From the IMG/VR virus record IMGVR_UViG_3300013006_000004, positions 1 through 36,881 of that record: DNA of 36,881 nt; one strand, written 5' to 3'. A program made the position numbers and the translations under genes. Position 1 is the first letter of the stretch, and each line of letters opens with the position of its first letter. Positions 1-35,230 of this stretch are shown here, piece after piece. Under the pieces are notes generated by a model that saw only the letters and a program-made list of their open reading frames with translations, was not told the origin of the DNA and did not search any database. Origin of the DNA: a virus.

Positions 1-123
1 ACATTATGGAGTTCTTCTTCAAGGTTGGGTTACACATGGATGAACTACAAGCTGATCAAAAAGACAAACTAAATAAAGAGATGAACGAATTGTTGGCTCA
101 ATATGGTATCAACTTAAATGTAG
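1..123. repeat. Terminal direct repeat, left copy
   Basis: Bases 1-123 are identical to 36759-36881. A coding frame runs through the join without interruption (36527 to 137), so the contig closes into a circle. The repeat is either an assembly overlap of a circular or circularly permuted genome, or less likely a true short terminal repeat of the virion DNA. The sequence alone cannot separate these. Confidence 0.95.
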
Positions 124-137
124 AAATAAATGGATAG
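1..137 (+). CDS. Hypothetical protein, 3' part (gene spans the contig junction)
   Basis: This is the C-terminal end of the gene that starts at 36527. In frame, the residues run from the repeat into the last codons and stop with TAG at 135-137. The joined product is 122 residues. It is mostly helical-looking and charged, with no motif I recognise. Its last 8 bases overlap the start of the next gene at 130, which fits tight operon packing in the plus-strand replication module. Bases 1-123 belong to the duplicated end, so only 124-137 is unique here. Confidence 0.8.
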   Translation, partial: IMEFFFKVGLHMDELQADQKDKLNKEMNELLAQYGINLNVEING

Positions 138-327
138 TATCGTTGAGTCTGTAATAGATAAAATAAAATCTCGTTCTGAGGTTGGAATAAAAAAATATGG
201 TGTAACATTGGACAGGACAGATTTTACCACTATTCAATGGATTGATTCTGCGATTGAGGAACAAATGGATAATATTTTATATTTAACAAGATTAAAAAAA
301 GACCTAATAGAAAATGGAATATCGTAA
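130..327 (+). CDS. Small phage protein with MazG-like helix, function unknown
   Basis: This is a 65-residue protein. The pattern 'KYGVTLDRTD' followed by 'WIDSAIEEQMDNILYL' occurs in many small phage proteins of Bacteroidota and other hosts. The E-E-x-x-D spacing in the second motif recalls the metal-binding helix of MazG-like nucleotide pyrophosphohydrolases. The protein is too short to hold a full MazG fold, so enzyme activity is only a guess. It overlaps the preceding gene by 8 bases and the homing endonuclease gene by 14 bases. Confidence 0.75.
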   Translation: MDSIVESVIDKIKSRSEVGIKKYGVTLDRTDFTTIQWIDSAIEEQMDNILYLTRLKKDLIENGIS

Positions 328-1030
328 AGCATTTATTTATCAAATAACTAATCCTTGTGGTAAAATATATATTGGATCTACCGTTGATTTAAAAGATAGA
401 ATTTATAGGTATAAAAATGCAAAACTTGGGAGCCAATTTAAAATAAAACATTCTATAATAAAATATGGATGGGATAATCATAAGTTTGAAGTAATATTTG
501 AATGCGAAGAAATTGATAGATATAAATATGAGGCATTTTATGGACATAAATTTCAAGTATTAGGCGATGAAGGATTAAATTTATCTTTACCTAGTGGCGA
601 AATTAAAGGATATGCAAAATCAGAGTCTACGAAATTAAAAACTAGTTTAATTCATAAGGGGAAAAAGATAAGTGATGAACAAAAAAAAGCTATGTCAATA
701 TCTTTGAAAAAAACATTTAAAGAAAATGGTCATCCATGCACAGGAAGGTTGCCTTGGAATAAAGGAAAACCTTTTTTATCCGGGAAAAACAATCCAATGT
801 TTGGGGTAAGAAGAAGTAATGATTGGAAAATTAAACAATCTTTACTAATGAAAAATATTAACCTAAGTGGTGAAAATCACCCATCAAGTAAAATTATAAT
901 TGATAAATATACTGGTGTGTTTTATTATTCACTTGGTGAATTATGTAGGCTTATTAGTGCAAATTATTCTACAATGAAAAATAAATTAAATGGAAATTTA
1001 AAAAACAATACAAGATATGAATACGCATAA
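314..1030 (+). CDS. GIY-YIG homing endonuclease with NUMOD-type DNA-binding motifs
   Basis: The product has 238 residues. The N-terminal GIY-YIG nuclease core shows 'FIYQITN' near residue 7, 'IYIGST' at 18-23, the expected arginine at R29 and the catalytic glutamate at about E73 (YEAFYG). The middle and C-terminus carry NUMOD3-like DNA-binding repeats: 'SDEQKKAMS' near 116, a WNKGKP block near 143, 'NNPMFG' near 155 and 'GENHPSS' near 186. A NUMOD1-like tail follows (Y..LGELCRLIS..). This architecture is typical of free-standing or intron-encoded phage homing endonucleases, which cut a site in related genomes and spread by repair. No intron or split gene is visible. Instead it overlaps both neighbours by 14 bases each, so it sits within the operon as an ordinary gene. 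Confidence 0.93.
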   Translation: MEYRKAFIYQITNPCGKIYIGSTVDLKDRIYRYKNAKLGSQFKIKHSIIKYGWDNHKFEVIFECEEIDRYKYEAFYGHKFQVLGDEGLNLSLPSGEIKGYAKSESTKLKTSLIHKGKKISDEQKKAMSISLKKTFKENGHPCTGRLPWNKGKPFLSGKNNPMFGVRRSNDWKIKQSLLMKNINLSGENHPSSKIIIDKYTGVFYYSLGELCRLISANYSTMKNKLNGNLKNNTRYEYA

Positions 1031-1253
1031 AGAAATTATTGAATTAAATGAACGCATTGATGAAATACACAATGAGCATAATGATATTTTTAATTATTTA
1101 AAATTAATTAAGACTGAATTAGAAAAGGAATTAGATATTAAAAATCGAATCATCGAAAATTTATCTAAGGTCATTAAATCACAAGAAGAAGAAATATATC
1201 AACTTAAAAAACAAGACTATACCCAATCTAAAAGAAGGGCATGGCATTACTAA
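1017..1253 (+). CDS. Small coiled-coil protein, function unknown
   Basis: This is a 78-residue, highly charged protein. Its heptad-like pattern of I/L with E/K from about residue 5 to 66 predicts one long coiled coil, and the C-terminus is basic (SKRRAWHY). It begins inside the last codons of the homing endonuclease gene with a 14-base overlap, and ends two bases before the methyltransferase start at 1255. No enzyme motif is visible. Translational coupling between the three genes is likely. Confidence 0.75.
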   Translation: MNTHKEIIELNERIDEIHNEHNDIFNYLKLIKTELEKELDIKNRIIENLSKVIKSQEEEIYQLKKQDYTQSKRRAWHY

Positions 1254-13057: not shown

Positions 13058-16000
13058 TACGCAATTTTAGACTTTAAAATATCTATTTCAGCTTGTTGAA
13101 TTTTAACCTTTTTCTTTAATTGAGTTATCTCACTTTCGTGACTCTTAAATCCTTCAATTAGTAATGGAGTTAATTGATTATAAGAAACTCCTTTGATACC
13201 ATCGTTACCAGTACTAACGGCATAAGGTAGTATCTTTTCAACCTCTTGTGCAATTACTCCATATTGATGCTCATCATTAGCTTTCCATTGATAAGCATAA
13301 CCATTTAATTGCATTAATTTATCAATTGGATTGTCAATTAATTTTAGGTTTTTCTTTAGAGTTAAATCAGAGTTGGCGGTTATATTTCCCGTTGCATAAA
13401 TTGCTCCCGAAACATAAAGCCTATATCCTGCATCAGAAGTAGTTCCTATTGAAACATTAGAACTATTACTTGCCCAAATTGGAAATACCCCAGTATCTAC
13501 ATTGTATAGTCCCCATCCAGCCGAAGCAATAGTTCCATTAAATAAGTAAAATGTATGTGCACCTCCTGTAGCCTCCCATCTCATTCCATTTTGAGTTGAA
13601 CCTCCAGCAAGTGATATTTTATTTGCATCTGAATCAGAAATTACCAATTTAGCAAGGCTTGGCGAATTGGTTCCTATCCCTACTTTGCCAACAGGAGTAA
13701 TTCGCATACGTTCAGTATCATTGGTAACTATTATAAATGGATTATTTGATTGTGTTCCAACAACTCCTAAAGCATTTGAACTTTGCATCCCCAAAATAGT
13801 CTTAACCGTATTAGCAGCATTAGTGACATAAATAGTTGCAAAACCACCACTTGCATCGGTTAAATGTATTGTTTTTTCAGCAGAACTTCCAAAAGGGGAA
13901 ATTGTATTTATACCAATTAATCCACCATTCTTAATGTAAAAAGTTCTTGTATCTCCACTTCCTAAAGCTAAATCTCCAGTAGTTGTATTAACTATTTCTA
14001 AAGCATTTCTTCTTGCAGTAGCTACAAATGTACTACCTAAAAATTGAATAGCTGCTTTAAATGTACCCGATTCACTAAAGTATATTCTACCATAATCAGA
14101 AGCAGAAGTATAATTTATAACTGAATTAGGCTGAGTTCCACTTACAGTTAATAATTCTGAAGGAGAAGTTGTTCCGATTCCCAATCGACCACTTGCATCC
14201 AATGTCATTGCTTGATTAGGAGTTATAGTATTCCCTGCTATTCCACTTGGTGCAACAAACCATTCGTGTTTACTATTTTGTTGGTTATAATAACTGGCAA
14301 AAGTACTAACTTTATAAGAAGGTGTTGAGCCACTCCAAGAAACATTTGATCCAAAAAGAGTTTGATTAACACCACTATAAATTGATCCACCACCGCTTGC
14401 TATTTCAAATAAAGAATATCCACCTAATCCACCCGCACTCGGGGTAACACCTAAGCCGAGATTACCACTAACTTCTTGTAATGCACTATTTCCAATCGCA
14501 CTACTTGAAGTAAACTTAGAAATATAATTAGTTGTTCCACTTAATGTAGATGCCTTAGCATTCAATTGAGTTTGAATGGAACTTGTAACTCCTTTTACAT
14601 AAGCTAATTCGGTAAGTGAAGGATAAGTAGCAACCGCTAAACTTGCTACCGTAGATGTAGTATTAAAATATGCTAATTCATTAATAGTACCGGTACCCGT
14701 AATATTATTAGTAATAATAGTTTGATAAGTACTTGATGCACTTGCGGTGGTTAAATAAGTACTATTGTCATACGATATTGTAGTACCACTTATTTTAACA
14801 AATCCCGTACCATTCAAAGCAACTTGACCACCTAAACCAACTAACGTATAAGTTGGAATATTTAGTACGTTAGAAACTAATGTAGCACTACCGCTTGAAC
14901 CCGTTACGGTTAAAGAAGTAATTCTATTGTTATATGCAATACCCCATTCCGAGGTACTTGTTGTTGATGGGATTACATACCCAGCGGTTAATGTTATACC
15001 AAATGTACCACTTGTTGTGATAGGAGAACCACTAACCGATAAACCCAATGGCATAGTCATTGCTACCGAAGTAACACTACCCGTACCCGTACCTTTATTG
15101 TTAAAAGTGTTCCAATCGGTAGAAGACAAGAATCCACTTGTTGAAGCACTTGCTTGATTAATTGATATTGTATTAGTTGTTCTAACTAATGGAGTGGTAA
15201 AACTTAAAACACTTTCTTTACCATTGAATGTATTCCAATCGGTACTTGAAAGATAGCCATTAGAAGCCGTTGTAGCTTGCGATATACTATATACACCATT
15301 TGAATAAGATAATGGTGTGGTGGCACTAAATAGTGCCTTAATCGAAGTGTCCGTTCCATTATAAGGAGTGTAACCTAACACAGTAGCAATAGATTTCTTT
15401 TCCCACAAGCTTGTTGTTGTATTATAGAACAACCCATCGTTATTAGAAGGTGATTGAGCCGACACATTGTGTAACTCATCCATCTCATAACCATTTTGTA
15501 CTTTAACTTCAATCACACCCAATGAAACGTGTGAACGAGTAACAACACCCACATAAACTAAATGGTTAGGTGCATATTGTTTAGTTGCCGTATAAGTACC
15601 CGCCGTAGTTGGAGAAAGATATAATTGTTGACCTTCACTAAATGCCGATGTATTAAGGTCTATAACCGATCCTACAATAACCACATTACCTTCGGCATTG
15701 TTAGCCAAGGTAGCTTGAAGTAATCCTAATGTTTGTGCTGAGGTAGCATTGGAGTTACCTTGTGATAATGCAACAGTTGGCTTATTCCCCGTAGCACCAT
15801 TGATATAAACAACACTACCCTTTGGCATTGACACACCACTACTATTCCTAACATTAATCACCAACTTATCTGCGGAGGCTAACACAGGGAATGTTTGTAA
15901 TGCACCAGTTCCATCTACATATTGTAATGTAGTACCACTTGGTGTGGCTAACTTATTATTAAAGGTATTCCAATCCGTAGAACTTAAATATCCATTAGTA

Positions 16001-19343: not shown

Positions 19344-21700
19344 TATCTTCCTGTAACTCTAAGTGTTGTTTCTAATGATTTATTAATTGAATAACCACTT
19401 TGTGTAGCCGTAATTGAACCAGTAAGGTCTACCATTAATCTAACTGATTGTGTGGCATAAGATGACCCACCATATTGATAAGATGATCCACTCGCCTTAG
19501 ATGAAACCAATGAACCACCGCCTCCGCCAACACCACCCATTGCACCCAAAAGATTAGATGAAGTTTGTTTAGCTTTTCCAACCGCACTACTCATATTTTC
19601 ACCCATTTGTTTTAAAGCAGTACCTGTTGCTATTGCTGCGATACCACCTATTAAACCAAGTGTAGATTCTCCCAAGGGATCAGCAAAAAATGATTTAAGT
19701 GCCGCCATTGCCCCAGAAGCAGCCACCGCAGCAATACCCGTTTTAACTAAGAAATCACCCATGGTTGTAAATATCATTCCCATTAAAGAATCAAATGAAT
19801 CTTTAAATCCCATTTCACCAAGACCAACACTTCCAATTATTTCTCCAAATCCAACGGCCAATGACATTGCCATATCTTTTGTAGCTGCATGGGTAGCTTG
19901 TGCAAAGTTTCTTAATCTATTTGAAGCATCTGTATCTTCTAATTCTTTAATAAAATCTCCAATTTGTTTTGGATATTCGCTTTTGATTCCCGCAGTTTCT
20001 TCTGCAAGTGATTTGATTGCCTCGGCTTGTTTTTTACCACCCGATTCAACCATTATTTTAAGGATATTGGTTTCTCTCCATTTAACTAAATCAATAATAC
20101 TCCACCCCGCCTCCTCGTATGCTTTCTTTAAATCTTCAAACTTTTTATTAACATCTGATATTTCTTTATCAGCACCTTTAAGAAAAATAGAACTTGTTTC
20201 TCGAACTATATTTCTATTTACCTCGGCTAATTTTTCTTGCCTTTTATAATTATCTGTTAATTCTTTATCAAATGCAGCCGTTCTTGCTCTCTCGGCCTTT
20301 TCAAGTTCTTTTTCTTCTTCGGTTTTACCGAGTTTCTTGTCGGCTCCCGGAGGCTTATTATCTAATCCAGTTAAGCCTACTGCCCTTGCAGTTGTTGATT
20401 CTAAAACTTTTAAATCATTTTTTAGTTTGGCGATTTTATCTTCTGTAATTTTTAGCGAAAGTGGACTCGTAGAAATATATATTTGTGTTCTACTTGCCTC
20501 TAAACCAGCTATTTCTTGTTTTATTTTACTAATAGAATCTACAATGTTTGTAGGAGATAAATCTACTTTACCAAAATCATTAAAATAACCAATAAGTGAC
20601 TTTATATCAGATGCAAGCCTTGGGTTTTGACTACTTATACTATCTGCAAATTTTATAATAGATGCATCTACTTCATCAAAAAATGAAACAATTGGTGCTC
20701 CTAATTTTAATAATCCATCTAAAACAAAAGTAAGTGCTTTCCATGCTTTAATGGTTAAATCAATTGTTATACCTAAAGCATCTAAAACAAATTTTAATAC
20801 TTTGCCAAATTCTGATGAATTATTCATTTCTTGATTTGCACCAATAAAAGAATTTTTAAGTTGATCAATTATTCCAGCTAAGTGAGTTATATTATCCCCT
20901 AATTCCAAGTTTTCTGAAATAGATGTTCCTATCTCGGCCATTGCAAATGTTGTACTTTCACTTAGCTTATTAAATTGTCCTTGTAATGTTTGAGATTGTT
21001 TATCAGCCATCCCAAAGAATCTACCTCCTTCACTTGTTGCATAGGTAAACGCATCACCAACATCCTTAACACTAATTTGACCATCGTGCATCCTTTTGGT
21101 TAATACCGCCATTGATTGGCCAGTTTTATCCGATATAGCTTGCAATGGGTTAAACCCAGCATTAATCATTTGTCTTGCCTCTTGACCCATTAAACGACCC
21201 GCTGCATTAACTTGACCAAATGCTAAAGATAATCTTTGAAACTTATCGGCATTACCACCAGATATATCACCTAACATACGAGTGATAGGAATAACTTGTT
21301 GTGCAGTTAAACCATACCCCAATAATGTTTGTGCTCCTTTGGTAATGTCTTGAAATTGCATTGGGGATTTAAGTGCTTGATCCTTTAAATCGGATAGCAT
21401 ATTCTTAGCAACTAATGCCGAACCCGTAAATACCTCAAATGCAATAGAGGTTTGCTCTAATTGAGCCGATGTTTGTAATGCTGATTTAATGAATAATCCA
21501 AAAGATGCAACTGATAATGTTGCTCCAAGACCCGAAAATAATGAAGATATTTTGCCCATTGAAGAACCAATACTGCCACTTGCTACACCCGTATTTCTTG
21601 ATAAACTACTAAGTGAATTTGATAAATCTTTAAGTTTAGATTTAGCATCGGCAATATCCGCACCAATTATTATCTTAAAGTCATTATTTTCTCCTGCCAT
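19343..21700 (-). CDS. Tail tape measure protein
   Basis: The product has 785 residues. Residues ~80-260 carry the tape-measure domain (SPMQFQDITKGAQTLLGYGL, then ISGGNADKFQRLSLAFGQVN and MGQEARQMINAGFNPL). Hydrophobic helices follow at about 630-700, with coiled-coil-like helix around 450-600. At about 0.15 nm per residue it would set a tail of about 115-120 nm, a rough estimate. A Gly/Ser-rich tail ends the protein. It follows the frameshifted chaperone genes, with the stop and start overlapping as TAATG. Confidence 0.95.
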   Translation of the reverse strand: MAGENNDFKIIIGADIADAKSKLKDLSNSLSSLSRNTGVASGSIGSSMGKISSLFSGLGATLSVASFGLFIKSALQTSAQLEQTSIAFEVFTGSALVAKNMLSDLKDQALKSPMQFQDITKGAQTLLGYGLTAQQVIPITRMLGDISGGNADKFQRLSLAFGQVNAAGRLMGQEARQMINAGFNPLQAISDKTGQSMAVLTKRMHDGQISVKDVGDAFTYATSEGGRFFGMADKQSQTLQGQFNKLSESTTFAMAEIGTSISENLELGDNITHLAGIIDQLKNSFIGANQEMNNSSEFGKVLKFVLDALGITIDLTIKAWKALTFVLDGLLKLGAPIVSFFDEVDASIIKFADSISSQNPRLASDIKSLIGYFNDFGKVDLSPTNIVDSISKIKQEIAGLEASRTQIYISTSPLSLKITEDKIAKLKNDLKVLESTTARAVGLTGLDNKPPGADKKLGKTEEEKELEKAERARTAAFDKELTDNYKRQEKLAEVNRNIVRETSSIFLKGADKEISDVNKKFEDLKKAYEEAGWSIIDLVKWRETNILKIMVESGGKKQAEAIKSLAEETAGIKSEYPKQIGDFIKELEDTDASNRLRNFAQATHAATKDMAMSLAVGFGEIIGSVGLGEMGFKDSFDSLMGMIFTTMGDFLVKTGIAAVAASGAMAALKSFFADPLGESTLGLIGGIAAIATGTALKQMGENMSSAVGKAKQTSSNLLGAMGGVGGGGGSLVSSKASGSSYQYGGSSYATQSVRLMVDLTGSITATQSGYSINKSLETTLRVTGR

Positions 21701-29126: not shown

Positions 29127-30509
29127 CTAAAAAATAATAAGTTTTTTCTTTGAATACTTAGTATAAACGGCATACCGAATACTATCTAATGCGTGATTAA
29201 AGTCATCAATGGGTTTATTTATTTGTTTTCCCCCAACCATCATCCATTGGTAGTTATCTACTTCCTTTTTAATGTTTTTTGACCGCCTCGTGTAATACAC
29301 TTCATATTCCCGCAATTTACTTATTCCTGCATTAACACTATCGTTTCCTTTGACTGCTTTTTTAATTGGCAACCCCTCTCTGCGTAATTCCTCAATAGAT
29401 TTTGGATCGGCACTATCAGCATAAATCTCACCGAGTTTATCTGGGTAAAGCTTAATCCTTTTAGCTAAATCTGAATTAGTTAATCCAGTTTGGTAAATAA
29501 CTTCATCAAGGTATAACTTATTTCCTAATTTTGCAATTCGAATAAGTGCCGTAGGGTCATTTGAGAATCCAAAGTCAAGGCCACTAAACAATACATCAAC
29601 ATCTTTTGGGAAAAATTCACAAGGTTGCCAATCGTGATAAATAAGGGATTCAACACTTGGTTTAGGGTTTTGCTGATAAAGGGATTCAAAAGTAAATGGT
29701 TCATTCTTCTTAACTCTTAACAATTTTTCTAATGCGTGTTTTTCGGGCCACAAAGCCTCACCATCTTTTCTTTTGTCATAACTATTCTCAGCTTTTTCAC
29801 GAATGGCAGGAAATTCAATAATTGTCCAGTCATCATCACGTTCAAGCAACCTACCAGCTAAATCATCATCATACCACCTTGTTTGGATAAGAACTTGTGC
29901 CGAACCATTGTGTAACCTCGTTTCGAACACATCGGTGTACCAATTCCAAAGTTGTTCTTTAACAACACTTGATTGTGCCTCTTGCCGATCTTTAAGTGGA
30001 TCATCAATAATTCCAATATCAACCGATGTACCCGTTAGTGAACCACCTCTACCAACGGCTTTAACATATCCATTAGCATTAACGGTTTGAAAGAACTCGG
30101 CCATCCTAATTGCCTCACCTTTTTTCTCACCAATCCTTGTTTCGGGAAAAAGTAGTTTAAATTCCTCTCCCACGATTCTTCTTTGTATTTCATTGCTAAA
30201 TTGCTCGGCTAAAGTAGCATTATAAGAAATAACGGCTAATTTAAGATTTGGGTTTCTTCCAAGAAGGTAAGCGGGGAAACTTCGTGTTGACAACTCAGAC
30301 TTGCCATGTTGTGGAGGCACAAAGATCATTAACTTCTTAATCTTACCAGCATACACTAAATCCAAATGATCAGCAATCACCTTGTGAAACCATTGCATAT
30401 CATAATCGGGTTTAATGAACTTAACGAAGTTACTAAACGACCTCCTCGAAAGTTCCCTCGTCAATATCTCTTTCTCTAATTTGGCTAAGTCTTTCTCGGA
30501 TTTGCTCAT
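29127..30509 (-). CDS. terL: Terminase large subunit
   Basis: The product has 460 residues. The ATPase domain shows Walker A 'VPPQHGKS' (64-71), Walker B 'VDIGIIDDP' (163-171) and the coupling motif 'IQTRW' (208-212). The RNase H-like nuclease domain shows D312 in 'SGLDFGFSNDPTA', D365 in 'YADSADPKSIEELR' and D442 in 'FNHALDSIRYA'. It powers packaging and cuts concatemers. It overlaps terS by 77 bases, so the small-subunit C-terminus is encoded over its N-terminus. Confidence 0.96.
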   Translation of the reverse strand: MSKSEKDLAKLEKEILTRELSRRSFSNFVKFIKPDYDMQWFHKVIADHLDLVYAGKIKKLMIFVPPQHGKSELSTRSFPAYLLGRNPNLKLAVISYNATLAEQFSNEIQRRIVGEEFKLLFPETRIGEKKGEAIRMAEFFQTVNANGYVKAVGRGGSLTGTSVDIGIIDDPLKDRQEAQSSVVKEQLWNWYTDVFETRLHNGSAQVLIQTRWYDDDLAGRLLERDDDWTIIEFPAIREKAENSYDKRKDGEALWPEKHALEKLLRVKKNEPFTFESLYQQNPKPSVESLIYHDWQPCEFFPKDVDVLFSGLDFGFSNDPTALIRIAKLGNKLYLDEVIYQTGLTNSDLAKRIKLYPDKLGEIYADSADPKSIEELRREGLPIKKAVKGNDSVNAGISKLREYEVYYTRRSKNIKKEVDNYQWMMVGGKQINKPIDDFNHALDSIRYAVYTKYSKKKLIIF

Positions 30510-30927
30510 CGGTCAATAATTTTGGATTTAATATATCTTCTTTAACATTTGTTTCAATTTGTATTGCTTGGGATGCCTTGCCATGTTGAAACTCAATCAT
30601 AAATTGGCTATTCTTCATCTCACCATTTTTAATGTCACCTAAGATGGCATTTGCGATCACCGAAATGAAGGCAGGTGTCTGAGAGTCCATCGCAATCATT
30701 CTAATGTCAGCAACGGTCATAGAATTGACCATAGCAACTACATCTACTACATCTTGCTTAGTCATGCGAATACGAAGTGATTTATCTACCTCCTCCATGA
30801 CTTTACGGAACATATTCTTGGGCCTACCATTGGGATTTCTTATTTCACCCGGTTGGATAGGTTTGAGGTTTTTTAATTGATTCTCAGTAAGCTTGCGTTT
30901 AGGCTTTTGATATTCTTGTTCTTCCAT
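30433..30927 (-). CDS. terS: Terminase small subunit (inferred)
   Basis: The product has 164 residues. 'IQPGEIRNPNGRPKNMFRK' is the basic N-terminal motif common to small terminase-like proteins of Bacteroidota phages, followed by helices (VDVVAMVNSMTVADIRMIAM) and a charged C-terminus. The position immediately upstream of terL, with overlap, supports the role in recognising phage DNA for packaging. It is the first gene of the late strand, next to the large non-coding region that may hold its target. Confidence 0.78.
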   Translation of the reverse strand: MEEQEYQKPKRKLTENQLKNLKPIQPGEIRNPNGRPKNMFRKVMEEVDKSLRIRMTKQDVVDVVAMVNSMTVADIRMIAMDSQTPAFISVIANAILGDIKNGEMKNSQFMIEFQHGKASQAIQIETNVKEDILNPKLLTDEQIRERLSQIRERDIDEGTFEEVV

Positions 30928-31016
30928 TTTGTAGTCATTAATTAACTTTGAAAATGCCCTATATTTTTTTTAGGTCAATTTCGGTTTAAATACGTTTTTC
31001 AATTTTGTCTTGTTGG

Positions 31017-31051
31017 TATTACACTAAGTATTACACTAAGTATATACTAAG
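31017..31051. repeat. Tandem repeat TATTACACTAAG, about three units
   Basis: Two exact 12-base units (31017-31028, 31029-31040) are followed by an 11-base variant TATATACTAAG (31041-31051) and an AT run. Spacing of about one helical turn suits iterons or a terminase/initiator binding array. It lies 90 bases upstream of terS. Confidence 0.75.
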
Positions 31052-31083
31052 TATAATATATATACTCTAACCTTATTTATAAT

Positions 31084-31161
31084 CATTCTAAATAACCTTA
31101 ACTTATTGACCCTTAGTATTTTAAGAAGTAGTTCCGCCGGGAAATACCCTTATTTAGAATG
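31084..31161. repeat. Perfect 12-bp inverted repeat pair
   Basis: CATTCTAAATAA (31084-31095) and TTATTTAGAATG (31150-31161) are exact reverse complements 54 bases apart. Related TTTAGA/TCTAAA motifs recur at 31912-31925 (CATTCT-AA-AGAATG) and 32111-32215, which points to one protein recognising the whole region. Confidence 0.65.
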
Positions 31162-31266
31162 GGTCTTAATAGTAGTTTACATGCAAACATAGGCAACTTT
31201 TTTATAAAACGAGTCATTTCTTTGTTTTTACTCATAATATTTTCCCAATGTTTACATATTTCACCC

Positions 31267-31300
31267 CAAAAGTATTAGGATTTTTTTAGTGGGCCCCCAA
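31267..31300 (-). promoter_or_regulatory. Possible promoter for terminase and late genes
   Basis: On the minus strand TTG (31300-31298), a 23-base spacer and TACTTTTG (31274-31267) fit the Bacteroidota consensus at its longest spacing. The leader to terS would be about 330 bases and include the tandem repeats. No better candidate lies closer to terS. Confidence 0.45.
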
Positions 31301-31321
31301 TTCCCAACAGGGTACCCCTCT

Positions 31322-31440
31322 TTGCTCCACGCATAAAAATCGTAACCAAAGTTGCTCCAAGTAGTTTACTACTGAATAAAAAATGGATCCGGTGGTGTCA
31401 TTTGAATAAAAAACGTAGCCAAAGCCGGATCCGGGGGTGT
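31322..31440. repeat. Modular repeat block with CCGGATCCGG palindrome
   Basis: Short modules occur twice each: TTGCTCCA (31322, 31352), CGTARCCAAAG (31341, 31414), GAATAAAAAA (31374, 31404) and GGATCCGGKGGTGT (31385-31398, 31427-31440). The second GGATCCGG is part of the palindrome CCGGATCCGG (31425-31434). A further palindrome AGTAGT-TT-ACTACT lies at 31360-31373. The block is much richer in G+C than its surroundings. Confidence 0.75.
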
Positions 31441-31701
31441 GGTGGATAGCAGGCCGGGAGTAGCCACCATGTACAAAACCTTGTTTAATCTATCTAAACG
31501 CACTTTATACTAATATGAATACATAACCTTAATACATTTAATCTAAGGCACTATATAAGGACTATGTAGGGAAACACCTTACCCACCGCATGAACCTACC
31601 TTAAATCAAAGATATGATACCTTAAATCTAATTGTAGGGTAAAACATATACCAAACAAAAAAAGGCCCCCGCTTTAAAGTTTTTTTTTCTTTTAATGATA
31701 T

Positions 31702-31761
31702 GGTATTAAGTAAACCAATGTATTAACCAATGTAAAGCAATGTATTAAAATAGGTATTAAG
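31702..31761. repeat. Helix-phased CCAATGTA repeats between GGTATTAAG flanks
   Basis: CCAATGTA starts at 31715 and 31727 and a third copy, GCAATGTA, at 31737, so units are 10-12 bases apart. Exact GGTATTAAG copies flank the set (31702-31710 and 31753-31761). This is a compact iteron-like array, about 550 bases from the first plus-strand gene. Confidence 0.7.
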
Positions 31762-31829
31762 ATAGTGTACTATTTGAGTTGTGAAATAAGATGACAAAAT
31801 ACTTTATTAATTATGCCAAAATAAAATAC

Positions 31830-31884
31830 AAGAAAGAAAGAAAAGAAAGTGGGGTAAAGAAAAGAAATAAAGAAAGAGATAAAG
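31830..31884 (+). other. Polypurine tract
   Basis: Fifty-five bases are almost only A and G (AAGAAAGAAAGAAAAG...), with four single T interruptions. Such strands can form unusual structures or serve as strand-specific priming or unwinding zones. It follows the CCAATGTA array and leads into very AT-rich DNA. Confidence 0.6.
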
Positions 31885-32110
31885 TATATTACTAATTAAT
31901 ACTATATAATACATTCTAAAGAATGGTGTTACATAAGTGTAATGCTATGCATTCTTATTCAAGAAAAAAATATGGGTTTAATCTGAATAAAAAAAACCTT
32001 TTTGAATATTTATTTTTAAAATGTATTTAACCTGTTGAATTACAAAGGATTAACCCATTAAAAAAGTTTATTATTTATGCTTTTTATAATCTATTTAATG
32101 CACTAATGAA

Positions 32111-32215
32111 ATTTAGATTGATTCTAAATAAGGGTGTAAATCTATGTTTAATGCGTGTATTAAGCGTTTTTATCCTGTTTAATACCCTATTTCCTTATTT
32201 AGATTGATTATAAAT
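32111..32215. repeat. Two near-identical 19-bp elements
   Basis: ATTTAGATTGATTCTAAAT (32111-32129) is an inverted repeat with seven-base arms. ATTTAGATTGATTATAAAT (32197-32215) differs at one base, 86 bases downstream. They lie 85-190 bases upstream of the first early gene, a good position for operators of the early transcript. Confidence 0.65.
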
Positions 32216-32299
32216 TAGGTATTAATGTATTGTATATATGTAAACAAGTATTAATATTGAAATATCATTTAAACAAAAACAATTTTAAACAAATCAATT

Positions 32300-32488
32300 A
32301 TGAAAGCTTTACAAACATTATTTCAAGCAATTTTATTTATCGTTTCCTTTTTAGCATTAGGAACAATTTTTTATTTAGTATTTACAAGGCATTATGATAG
32401 TTCAGATTTGGTCGGCATAATGGTTTTTACATTTCCTGTATTAATGGCCTTAGTTTTATCTTTTACCTTATTAATCGAAAAAAAATAA
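32300..32488 (+). CDS. Small two-helix membrane protein
   Basis: The product has 62 residues. Two hydrophobic helices (about 5-28 and 37-59) flank a polar loop 'RHYDSSDL', and the C-terminus is EKK. The leader 'aaacaaaaacaattttaaacaaatcaatt' is A-rich. It is the first plus-strand gene after the large control region, so probably an early gene acting at the host membrane. Function unknown. Confidence 0.7.
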   Translation: MKALQTLFQAILFIVSFLALGTIFYLVFTRHYDSSDLVGIMVFTFPVLMALVLSFTLLIEKK

Positions 32489-32513
32489 TTTCACCTTTAA
32501 AACCCCTTATATC

Positions 32514-32642
32514 ATGGCTACCAAAATAGAATTTAAAACAAACAGATTTAAAAACTTTATTAGCGACTCAATAGAATTTATTTTTTATATGGTCGTATTG
32601 TTTATGGCTATTGCCTTTGTGTCAATAATCGAAAATCTTTAA
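32514..32642 (+). CDS. Micro membrane protein (42 aa)
   Basis: An ATG at 32514 opens 42 residues up to TAA 32640-32642. The N-terminal half is basic (KIEFKTNRFKNFI). The second half is one hydrophobic helix (about 21-39, EFIFYMVVLFMAIAFVSII). It fills the gap between two other genes of the operon with ordinary spacing on both sides. Likely single-pass membrane protein. Confidence 0.6.
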   Translation: MATKIEFKTNRFKNFISDSIEFIFYMVVLFMAIAFVSIIENL

Positions 32643-32664
32643 TCATCTTAAACAATTAAAAAAA

Positions 32665-32964
32665 ATGGAAAATTTAAAATTAAACGGATTTAATAACTCT
32701 TGGATTTGCAACCGTGAGGCGGTTGGCTTATCTAAATGCTTTGAGGCTTATGCTAAATATTGCAGCGGTAATCATATTTTAGAAATTGGGTTTAATCCAA
32801 ATAGTGGGTATGTATATATTGCCCTTGAAATGGAACCGATTTCAATTTGTTCAATGTTGGGCGGGGATGTAGAGTATTTATTTAATGACTTTGAAAGTGG
32901 TGAAGAAAATTTCTTTGAAACTTATGAGGAGGCGGTGGCTTATGATAATCAAATAACAAAATAA
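32665..32964 (+). CDS. Hypothetical acidic protein
   Basis: The product has 99 residues and is clearly acidic, especially at the C-terminus (FNDFESGEENFFETYEEA). 'HILEIGFNPNSGYVYIALE' suggests paired strands. A-rich leader 'aaacaattaaaaaa'. No family known to me. It belongs to the run of unknown early genes, where host-takeover or anti-defence proteins are often found. Confidence 0.75.
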   Translation: MENLKLNGFNNSWICNREAVGLSKCFEAYAKYCSGNHILEIGFNPNSGYVYIALEMEPISICSMLGGDVEYLFNDFESGEENFFETYEEAVAYDNQITK

Positions 32965-32975
32965 ACTTAAATATT

Positions 32976-33215
32976 ATGAAAACTTTATTAATTAATAGAT
33001 TAGCTTTTTTAGATTGGTATTTTTCAGATAATATTAATTTTACGGATAATGTTTATATATCATTATTACAAGAGGGTAAATATGAAATAGATATTCAAGA
33101 ACTTTTAGAGTCAACAGGGTATATTTCTGAACATATTTTAGAAAGTGGGCAAGAATATGAACTTTATGAAAATGGGGATGTAAATACAGAAAATGTAAAT
33201 CTTAAAATCAATTAA
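32976..33215 (+). CDS. Hypothetical acidic protein
   Basis: The product has 79 residues, acidic (EIDIQELLESTGYISEHILE, then SGQEYELYENGDVNTENV). It starts 12 bases after the previous gene. It has a helical N-terminus and short strands after it. No recognisable motif. Confidence 0.72.
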   Translation: MKTLLINRLAFLDWYFSDNINFTDNVYISLLQEGKYEIDIQELLESTGYISEHILESGQEYELYENGDVNTENVNLKIN

Positions 33216-33238
33216 TCAACTTTTTAAACAAAAACAAA

Positions 33239-33685
33239 ATGAAAAATTATCAATCAAATCAAAAATTAGTTCAAGCCTTTGCTACTTTTAAATCCTATGA
33301 GGGTAGGGCAAATAATATGTATTTTGGGGGCTCTACGATTTATTCATACGGTTATCATTTCCCAATAGCAACCCGAACAGACCAAGCGACATTTTTTAAT
33401 ATTAGCAACTATTCAAACACAACGGCAAAACATAAATCATTAGTTCGTAATGCCTTGTTAAATGACAAATTTATAGAGTGTATGTATGTACCTACTATTT
33501 CGCAAATTGAAAGGAATTTTTTAGATGACACACACAAAAATAATTTTAATTATTGGGATGTAAGAATTGCCAATTTATTAAAGGAAATTGAAAACCCGAG
33601 AGTAAGAAACAAGAAATCACGTTTACTTGAAATCGAAAAATTAAATACTAACAAAACTGAATATAAAAAATATTTTAACATCTAA
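33239..33685 (+). CDS. Hypothetical protein of a plasmid/phage-type family
   Basis: The product has 148 residues. 'GGSTIYSYGYHFPIATR' followed by 'NYSNTTAKHKSLVRNAL' is like hypothetical proteins found in phages and plasmids that I cannot assign a function. The C-terminus is basic and helical (NKKSRLLEIEKLNTNKTEYKKYF). Leader 'tttttaaacaaaaacaaa' is A-rich. The third copy of CGAGAGTAAGA lies inside it at 33597. Confidence 0.75.
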   Translation: MKNYQSNQKLVQAFATFKSYEGRANNMYFGGSTIYSYGYHFPIATRTDQATFFNISNYSNTTAKHKSLVRNALLNDKFIECMYVPTISQIERNFLDDTHKNNFNYWDVRIANLLKEIENPRVRNKKSRLLEIEKLNTNKTEYKKYFNI

Positions 33686-33689
33686 AAAA

Positions 33690-34208
33690 ATGGAAAAGTA
33701 TATAGATTATGAAACGGTAAAATTTGATATTAATCAAATACAGGATTTTAAATTAAATTCTGAATATAGCAAATCAATTTTTTGGTCAAATGGCAAAATT
33801 GATATTTATGCCTCGCCGCAATGGGATGAGGAATTTGGCAAATGTCCTATTCAATTAAGTTATGGCGAGGAATTAACAGACGGCCACGAATTTGACCTTG
33901 GAAAGCCTTATGATTTAGAAAATCAAAAGAAAAGATATTTAGAAATAATTACAGATTTAATTAATGATTTAAAAAATCCGTTTACTAATTATAATAATTT
34001 ATTAGAAACAGTTTTAAATAAATATAAAATTAAAGCGGAAATAATTGACATTGATGGACTAATTTACGATGGCGATGAGGTTGAGTTATTCGAGGGCCAA
34101 ATTGTAGATTTAATCGAAATAGATGAATATGAACAAGCTTTAATTTGTACCAATAATGGCGAAAAACACACAATTTTTTCTTATAGAATTCAAATATTAA
34201 ACTTTTAA
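33690..34208 (+). CDS. Hypothetical acidic protein
   Basis: The product has 172 residues, with many Asp and Glu. 'SIFWSNGKIDIYASPQWDEE' opens a strand-rich N-terminal part. A helix follows (KRYLEIITDLINDLKNPF), then a compact strand set with 'GDEVELFEGQIVDLIEIDEYEQALICTNNGE'. The last part could be a small beta-barrel. No family is recognised. Confidence 0.75.
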   Translation: MEKYIDYETVKFDINQIQDFKLNSEYSKSIFWSNGKIDIYASPQWDEEFGKCPIQLSYGEELTDGHEFDLGKPYDLENQKKRYLEIITDLINDLKNPFTNYNNLLETVLNKYKIKAEIIDIDGLIYDGDEVELFEGQIVDLIEIDEYEQALICTNNGEKHTIFSYRIQILNF

Positions 34209-34212
34209 AATC

Positions 34213-34440
34213 ATGAAATTTAAAATAAATAAATCAAATCAAATTTTAGCGAGTGTTTGGAGTTGGGAGGGTATTTTGTTAGCCTCGGTAATTACAAAAG
34301 AAATAGAAAACGTAGAGCAAGCAAAAAAAATGTTAATTAGTCAAATCCCATACGATTATATTAATAAGAAAATCCAAATCGGTATTTGGAACCTTGATAA
34401 TGAAACAGAAAAGCTTTTTAGCTGCTTTGCAAGAGAATAA
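34213..34440 (+). CDS. Hypothetical protein, last of the early operon
   Basis: The product has 75 residues. It contains short strands (NQILASVWSWEGILLASVIT) and a helix with 'NVEQAKKMLISQIPYDYINKK'. It starts four bases after the previous gene and is followed by two terminators at 34468 and 34526. Function unknown. Confidence 0.72.
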   Translation: MKFKINKSNQILASVWSWEGILLASVITKEIENVEQAKKMLISQIPYDYINKKIQIGIWNLDNETEKLFSCFARE

Positions 34441-34467
34441 AGAGTAATTAATTAAAGATTAAACATT

Positions 34468-34491
34468 AGGCCCTTTTTTATGGGCCTTTTG
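34468..34491 (+). terminator. First of two tandem intrinsic terminators
   Basis: AGGCCC (34468-34473) pairs with GGGCCT (34482-34487), the loop is mostly T, and TTTTG follows. It ends the early operon 27 bases after the last stop. Confidence 0.85.
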
Positions 34492-34525
34492 TCATTATTA
34501 AGTACCTATATTAAAATCAAACATT

Positions 34526-34547
34526 GGCCCTATTTTTGGGCCTTTTT
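34526..34547 (+). terminator. Second tandem intrinsic terminator
   Basis: GGCCC (34526-34530) pairs with GGGCC (34538-34542), a seven-base loop, then TTTTT (34543-34547). The preceding AAACATT is shared with the first terminator, so the pair looks like a local duplication. Confidence 0.85.
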
Positions 34548-34711
34548 GCGTTTACCTAAACCACTACAAAGACATTTTATTAAATACATTGGATTTAAGG
34601 CATTATTTTAAAGATACCTATCCAATCATATTACCTACACTACAAAAGTCCTTTAAACTTAAAGTATTGCCCATATAAATTGATAATTAAACAAAATAAA
34701 TACCTTATAAA

Positions 34712-34966
34712 ATGAATACTCAAAAAATTAATCCGAAATATTACTTTTTTAATTGCCCATTGAAAACAAGTACAAATTTTAACGAAGGAGGGGTAAATAC
34801 CGGATCCGGTTGTGCCAGCCAAAAAGCTGATAGTCCCGGGGAAATTTGGGGAAAAATTACAAATCCAACCGACCAATTTATTATTTTATGTTCGGTGATT
34901 TTTTTATTTTCCTTTTTAATTTTTGTAACATTTTTGCTATTGTTTTTGATAATTTATTTCAAATAA
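34712..34966 (+). CDS. Hypothetical protein with C-terminal membrane helix
   Basis: The product has 84 residues. The N-terminal 57 are polar, Asn/Gly/Ser-rich. Residues ~58-83 are a strong hydrophobic helix (IILCSVIFLFSFLIFVTFLLL). This gives a C-tail-anchored membrane protein. It carries the palindrome ACCGGATCCGGT (34799-34810), which resembles the motif repeated at 31385 and 31427. It has no consensus promoter, and a minus-strand frame also overlaps it, so its status is moderate. Confidence 0.55.
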   Translation: MNTQKINPKYYFFNCPLKTSTNFNEGGVNTGSGCASQKADSPGEIWGKITNPTDQFIILCSVIFLFSFLIFVTFLLLFLIIYFK

Positions 34967-34996: not shown

Positions 34997-35029
34997 TTGC
35001 AATTATTAAATAAATCTTGTTTACATTTG
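34997..35029 (+). promoter_or_regulatory. Bacteroidota-type promoter for the replication operon
   Basis: TTG (34997-34999), a 22-base spacer and TACATTTG (35022-35029) match the consensus. A start codon follows at 35051. The in-frame ATG at 34997 inside the promoter is therefore not used. This is likely the main promoter of the long plus-strand module. Confidence 0.8.
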
Positions 35030-35050: not shown

Positions 35051-35230
35051 ATGAAAGAAAAAACTGAAAAAAATCCCAAAAAAGCGGGTAGACCAAAATT
35101 GGAACCAACCATCGTAAGATCGGTGAGAGTTAAGGAATCATTAGATAAGGAAATGTGCAAGAGATTTTCCAACAAATATGTGAGTAAATTATGGCCAGAT
35201 TTTTGCCGAGTTTATTTACTAAATAATTAG
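35051..35230 (+). CDS. Small basic DNA-binding-like protein, candidate regulator
   Basis: The product is 59 residues. The N-terminus is very basic (KEKTEKNPKKAGRPKLEP) and holds a GRPK core like an AT-hook. The remainder, 'VRSVRVKESLDKEMCKRFS', has the strand-then-helix pattern of ribbon-helix-helix proteins. A-rich leader 'attacaaaacaaa'. It lies alone between a consensus promoter and a terminator, so it may be expressed separately. It is the clearest regulator candidate in the genome. Function inferred. Confidence 0.65.
   Translation: MKEKTEKNPKKAGRPKLEPTIVRSVRVKESLDKEMCKRFSNKYVSKLWPDFCRVYLLNN

Follow-up and report, generated by a model that had tools for sequence, protein, structure and literature searches.

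Small unrelated genes exchanged at a fixed site beside the control region of a tailed phage: a probable early cassette for counter-defence or host takeover

The host-takeover module of SPO1 comprises 26 genes in a terminal region, several of which have been shown to act on the host (PMC6873191). In archaeal viruses, accessory anti-defence genes unrelated to one another are grouped into early regulons (PMC11065993), and acr loci are swapped in related phages (PMC7648647). The seven-gene locus described here, g1-g7, shares with the SPO1 module clustered small early-region genes of mostly unknown domains and supposed host action (PMC6873191), and with the archaeal regulons accessory genes, mostly unrelated and poorly conserved, behind a conserved early-type regulatory sequence (PMC11065993). 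As in acr-aca loci, small genes that related phages swap lie close to a small gene of DNA-binding-like type (PMC7648647). An analogy also holds with the leading region of conjugative plasmids, where accessory genes are placed for first reading after entry (PMC11541004). Counter-defence in phages of Bacteroidota is little known so far.

The locus lies in a 36.9-kb virus record derived from a tailed phage; the whole stretch analysed, 36,881 nucleotides, is called the window. The minus strand carries, from 30.9 kb down to about 7.8 kb, the terminase, portal, protease, capsid, tape measure and tail genes, while the plus strand encodes RusA, a DNA methyltransferase, exonuclease VIII, a replication-initiation protein and a DnaB helicase. 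Genes g1-g7 are the first of the plus-strand, replication-side arm and diverge from terS (30433-30927, minus strand). They adjoin the control region, as the initial annotation held, with the region lying between 30927 and 32300 and the slot, as we term the g1-g7 site, starting at 32300. The promoter type, the start context and the phage relatives point to a Bacteroidota-type host. A DNA search of phage records gave no match, and an RNA-family search of the region returned only a sub-threshold match. As regards a lysogenic-conversion moron, which would call for a temperate phage with integrase and repressor, no integrase was seen among the larger ORFs scanned, with the smallest ORFs covered in part and the record possibly incomplete.

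The seven ORFs proposed at 32300-34440 on the plus strand are present and encode products of 62, 42, 99, 79, 148, 172 and 75 aa (Table 1). All are co-directional, with intergenic gaps of 25, 22, 11, 23, 4 and 4 nt. An A occupies position -3 of all seven starts, a rule described for Flavobacterium johnsoniae, a member of the Bacteroidota (PMC6847099). In 21 of 23 slots, the first ATG is preceded at 35-75 nt by TTG-N19/20-TAnnTTTG (spacing 19-21), a Bacteroidota-type promoter whose -7 consensus was taken from PMC9723704; some of these promoters, including that of the window, have one mismatch. The two terminators said to close the operon correspond to two hairpins after g7. The count from the terminator scan is by itself not clearly over chance (4 found, 2.0 expected); two to three tandem hairpins follow g7 at the equivalent place in siblings that have no extra gene there. 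The slot is thereby predicted to have its own host-type promoter and terminators. Promoter, gaps, direction and terminators together define g1-g7 as a single predicted transcription unit.

Comparison with homologues gave dN/dS values of at most 0.33 for g1, g2, g3, g4 and g7. Because of these values, the viral relatives of g5 and the match at the C-terminus of g6, g1-g7 are judged to be real genes and not chance ORFs. The two membrane proteins that had been noted are g1 and g2. The statement that no product has a known domain stands for Pfam, NCBIfam and PADLOC, which made no assignment, and fails for g5, which matches PHROG 7247 (unknown function). None of g1-g7 matched a virion part, in line with the early role first proposed, and Pfam, NCBIfam, PADLOC and PHROG searches gave no virion or replication match for the window's cargo.

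Table 1. Positions of the genes and predicted control elements in the window
Feature	Coordinates	Strand	Supporting data
Palindromic operator copy 1, before terS and late genes	31075..31093	.	0 mismatches on minus strand; same place in siblings
Operator copy 2, weaker, before terS	31153..31170	.	3 mismatches; same place in siblings
Control region, non-coding, about 1.3 kb, terS (-) to slot (+)	30928..32299	.	No long ORF; motifs conserved in position among siblings
Palindromic operator copy 3, before slot	32112..32129	.	0 mismatches; sibling comparison
Palindromic operator copy 4, before slot, 86 nt from copy 3	32198..32215	.	0 mismatches; sibling comparison
Slot promoter TTG-N19-TAATATTG, one mismatch to TAnnTTTG; TGTAAACA at 32239-32246	32230..32259	+	Equivalent in most siblings
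g1, 62-aa membrane protein, exchangeable cargo	32300..32488	+	44% to L030; dN/dS 0.32
g2, 42-aa peptide, one membrane segment, recurrent slot position	32514..32642	+	dN/dS 0.12-0.26
g3, acidic 99-aa protein, family core EIGFNPNSGYVYIAL	32665..32964	+	34 viral loci; alignment; model pLDDT 92
g4, acidic 79-aa protein	32976..33215	+	dN/dS 0.33; accompanies g3 in L010
g5, basic 148-aa protein, N-terminal domain of PHROG 7247	33239..33685	+	Profile match; model pLDDT 94
g6, acidic 172-aa protein	33690..34208	+	C-terminal 60 aa match a free-standing 59-aa ORF in L010
g7, 75-aa closing gene	34213..34440	+	In 21/23 slots; dN/dS 0.05
Terminator 1	34468..34487	+	Hairpin scan; sibling equivalents
Terminator 2	34526..34542	+	Hairpin scan; sibling equivalents
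g9 promoter TTG-N22-TACATTTG, overlapping TGTTTACA (35018-35025)	34997..35029	+	Conserved in siblings
g9, basic, 59 aa, KAGRP...SVRIP protein, outside operon	35051..35230	+	17 loci; alignment A7

A terminase search identified 53 viral contigs, several with a 98-100% identical terminase, and the slot comparison drew on about 50 sibling phages. In three of them (L002, L003 and L006), DNA similarity to the window extends to about 32292 (32321 in L003), eight bases 5' of the g1 start, these borders being BLAST ends accurate to some tens of bases. Beyond this point similarity is lost, g2 excepted, and resumes at 34196 (L003, L006) or 34534 (L002). None of the three encodes g1, g3, g4, g5 or g6, and other genes take their place. 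When the window was compared with 13 larger sibling records, 32305-34820 (2516 bases) was the longest stretch with at most one sibling match among the matches listed; the next-longest, on the same terms, measured 1417 bases.

The 23 slots, of about 1.0-2.7 kb, contain 105 ORFs of at least 35 aa in 49 families, 25 of which were found in one slot only; sibling genes were called mechanically (ATG start, at least 35 aa, overlaps removed). The g1-g7 unit is thus a cargo slot, in which small unrelated genes are exchanged at a fixed site between close relatives. Its frame recurs, as judged from the siblings, and consists of g7, the tandem terminators and a membrane peptide at the g2 position, where most slots hold a peptide of 35-46 aa with one membrane segment. 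Sibling slots also hold GP88 (PF17338, 5.1e-33) and PHROGs 5162, 7028, 4534, 1617 and 37559, almost all annotated as of unknown function. In the near-identical sibling L003, a GP88 protein (PF17338, 5.1e-33; PHROG 1617), from a phage family with no assigned function, replaces g3-g6 at positions 2311-3165 of L003, minus strand. Synonymous divergence is high for g7 (1.14 to L006) and low for the downstream genes g8 (0.12) and g9 (0.06), and the right-hand crossovers would therefore lie near g7 and the terminators.

Other parts of the window vary as well. Almost no sibling DNA match was found for window positions 1-1122, which include a homing endonuclease gene (314-1030), or for 1260-1874, which include a DNA methyltransferase gene (1255-1869). 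Together they form a second variable place, which through its methyltransferase may also serve counter-defence. Two further variable stretches, 13420-14200 and 19508-20924, fall within the tail-fibre and tape-measure genes, as expected from divergence in host range and tail length.

The regulatory sequences around the slot recur in the siblings, in part through common descent, since these phages are related. In 12 of 16 representatives, TGTAAAC or its complement GTTTACA occurs no more than 110 nt from the ATG that opens the slot, the expected number being 0.47. The octamer of the slot promoter recurs at the g9 promoter, which it overlaps, and near terS in many siblings. Genome-wide enrichment of TGTAAACA was rejected (6 copies, 3.1 expected), and it is only its placement at control points that stands out. 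The palindrome TTTAGAATGATTCTAAA has 10 matches in the window, both strands counted, against 1.31 expected, and seven of the ten are in the control region. It is present at homologous places in the siblings, often with one further copy before g8. Since these predicted operators are common to the early cargo and the late genes, they suggest a phage-wide switch; their position on both sides of the control region may mark a switch from early to late expression.

The nearest candidate regulator for these operators would be g9, and TTTAGATTGATTCTAAAT and the slot promoter are its candidate DNA targets. Profile searches with g9 found no match; a ribbon-helix-helix assignment, which the pattern fits by eye, was rejected, as no profile matched. 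No helix-turn-helix regulator was found among g1-g7, and g9 sits in a separate unit. Within g8 (34712-34966), AAAAAGCTRATAGTCC at 34821-34836 is almost invariant in all siblings that reach the g8 block, third codon positions included, whereas the remainder of the gene has drifted. Such constancy suggests a DNA site, putatively one used in packaging, replication or recombination, and not a protein motif.

The initial annotation had linked three markedly acidic products to DNA-mimic anti-restriction proteins. Their acidity was confirmed: g4, g3 and g6 are the phage's most acidic products per residue, with pI values of 4.05-4.30. An operon in which these three imitate DNA and inhibit restriction enzymes would also agree with the recurrence of strongly acidic families in sibling slots. 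Counting every slot, 8 of 30 families (at least 60 aa) reach a net charge per residue of roughly -0.09 or less; among 37 genes of this phage outside the slot, none does (Fisher p 0.0009). These counts indicate that slots recruit several strongly acidic families. A general acidic shift across slot families was rejected, the medians being alike (p 0.49), so acidity is not a common trait of the cargo. Ocr has a net charge of about -0.2 per residue. The charge of g3, g4 and g6 is only -0.11 to -0.14 per residue, which weakens the hint of mimicry, and no profile of Ocr or ArdA matched any of g1-g7. Moreover, the alignment of the g3 family contains ten invariant residues, none of them Asp or Glu. 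These residues and the conserved core EIGFNPNSGYVYIAL are what a protein with a specific fold, not a charge mimic, would be expected to show. The AlphaFold model of g3 resembles no PDB fold, hence no known mimic, and we regard DNA mimicry as the role of this operon as very unlikely, although the evidence from residues and fold covers g3, and g4 or g6 may yet act in this way.

The g3 family comprises 34 viral loci with 35-80% identity, and a search of 84,980 species genomes of bacteria and archaea revealed no relatives. The g3 model is a confident alpha-beta5-alpha structure (pLDDT 92). PDB sequence and fold searches with g3 gave no significant match (best E 0.35), and the model has one clear viral structural relative, which has no name (TM 0.85). 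The acidic g6 consists of an N-terminal part without relatives and a C-terminal domain of about 60 aa, the latter occurring alone in L010.

Residues 1-93 of g5 match the profile of PHROG 7247 (3.7e-17). At least 197 viral relatives were reached with a small alignment, while single-protein scans of viral contigs with g5 and with g6 gave no match. Most PHROG 7247 relatives are 260-420 aa long with a GCH-containing C-terminal domain, which g5 of the window lacks; it and L061 possess only the N-domain and a helical tail, the window protein ending at 148 aa. The g5 model is confident (pLDDT 94), and PDB sequence and fold searches gave no significant match (best E 0.26). A ricin-like fold was dismissed as noise, the top rows having E above 0.2, TM of about 0.25 and rmsd of 6-17 A.

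Relatives of g5 also occur in unrelated phages: they precede the RNA polymerase gene of Rhizobium phage RHEph01 and, in Caulobacter phage Karma, fall within the terminal repeat. Such places in phages like these are read early. Weak enrichment at the heads of transcription units was seen for g5 after long gaps (p 0.025) and for g3 after divergent neighbours (p 0.014); a preference of g5 for divergent neighbours was rejected (p 0.50). No relatives of g5 were found on plasmids, and no known anti-restriction gene was detected beside g5 relatives among 111 neighbour proteins (alignment A8, loci L061-L137). One of the 111 matches the Staphylococcus phage terminal-repeat protein TreK (8.6e-19).

Turnover of small genes in a fixed early-type frame typifies counter-defence and host-takeover loci (PMC11065993, PMC7648647, PMC6873191, PMC11541004), and on this ground the locus is probably an exchangeable early accessory cassette for one of these purposes. 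Upon DNA entry, host sigma-A RNA polymerase would bind at 32230-32259 and produce a single g1-g7 mRNA, with the tandem terminators closing it. The cargo products (g1 and g3-g6) would then most likely block host functions or redirect them, foremost defence systems, and the cargo set of each phage lineage would be the one suited to its local hosts. The cargo would be swapped by recombination between conserved flanks, formed by the control region to about 32292 and by g7 and the terminators from 34196. A phage regulator, possibly g9, would probably tune the slot promoter later through the palindromes that also precede the late genes.

Since known anti-defence proteins, acr included, gave no match to the cargo in Pfam, NCBIfam and PADLOC, its function is one that we infer. 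Tentatively, the slot may serve a group of Bacteroidota phages as a plug-in anti-defence locus. In such a locus, dozens of small recombination-swapped families would inhibit separate immune systems, at least two folds (g3 and the g5 N-domain) would be unseen in solved structures, and a palindromic operator would couple early cargo and late genes. The cargo could instead shut down or retune host transcription, division, proteolysis or metabolism, varying because hosts vary. The small-gene cluster behind a strong-type promoter, the parallel with the SPO1 module (PMC6873191) and the TreK-like neighbour of a g5 relative accord with such a takeover. However, turnover among nearly identical phages suits an arms race with variable defences better than an attack on conserved machinery, and we consider host takeover on its own rather unlikely. 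One or two small membrane proteins are present in 19 of 23 slots, as would be expected if membrane peptides blocked the entry of other phages and soluble products attacked competitors. Such superinfection exclusion or phage-phage competition is improbable, as the cargo is mostly soluble and profile searches of the window and sibling slots matched no such family.

For the preferred reading of the slot as an early accessory cassette, the fixed borders turn the search for counter-defence genes into a list, in which everything from the promoter (TTG-N19/20-TAnnTTTG with TGTAAAC) to g7 is a candidate. These borders provide 49 candidate families from 23 slots at once. Because the g3 and g5 families both occur in many other phages, a function found for either would extend the annotation to hundreds of proteins. 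The shared operator TTTAGAATGATTCTAAA could also serve as a handle on the early-late switch in the sibling phages.

Set against the systems described above, the locus exhibits distinct features. In contrast to the SPO1 module, it is one seven-gene operon whose cargo is swapped between siblings, and its action on the host is a prediction. The archaeal regulons place their motif before many separate genes and their expression is known, whereas the slot is one polycistronic unit of a bacterial virus, with predicted expression. Unlike acr-aca loci, it contains no known acr, and its candidate regulator g9 belongs to another unit and matched no helix-turn-helix. It also differs from the plasmid leading region in belonging to a phage, and its g5 has no plasmid relatives. 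The slot is therefore a cassette of a kind already known, built from protein families that are new.
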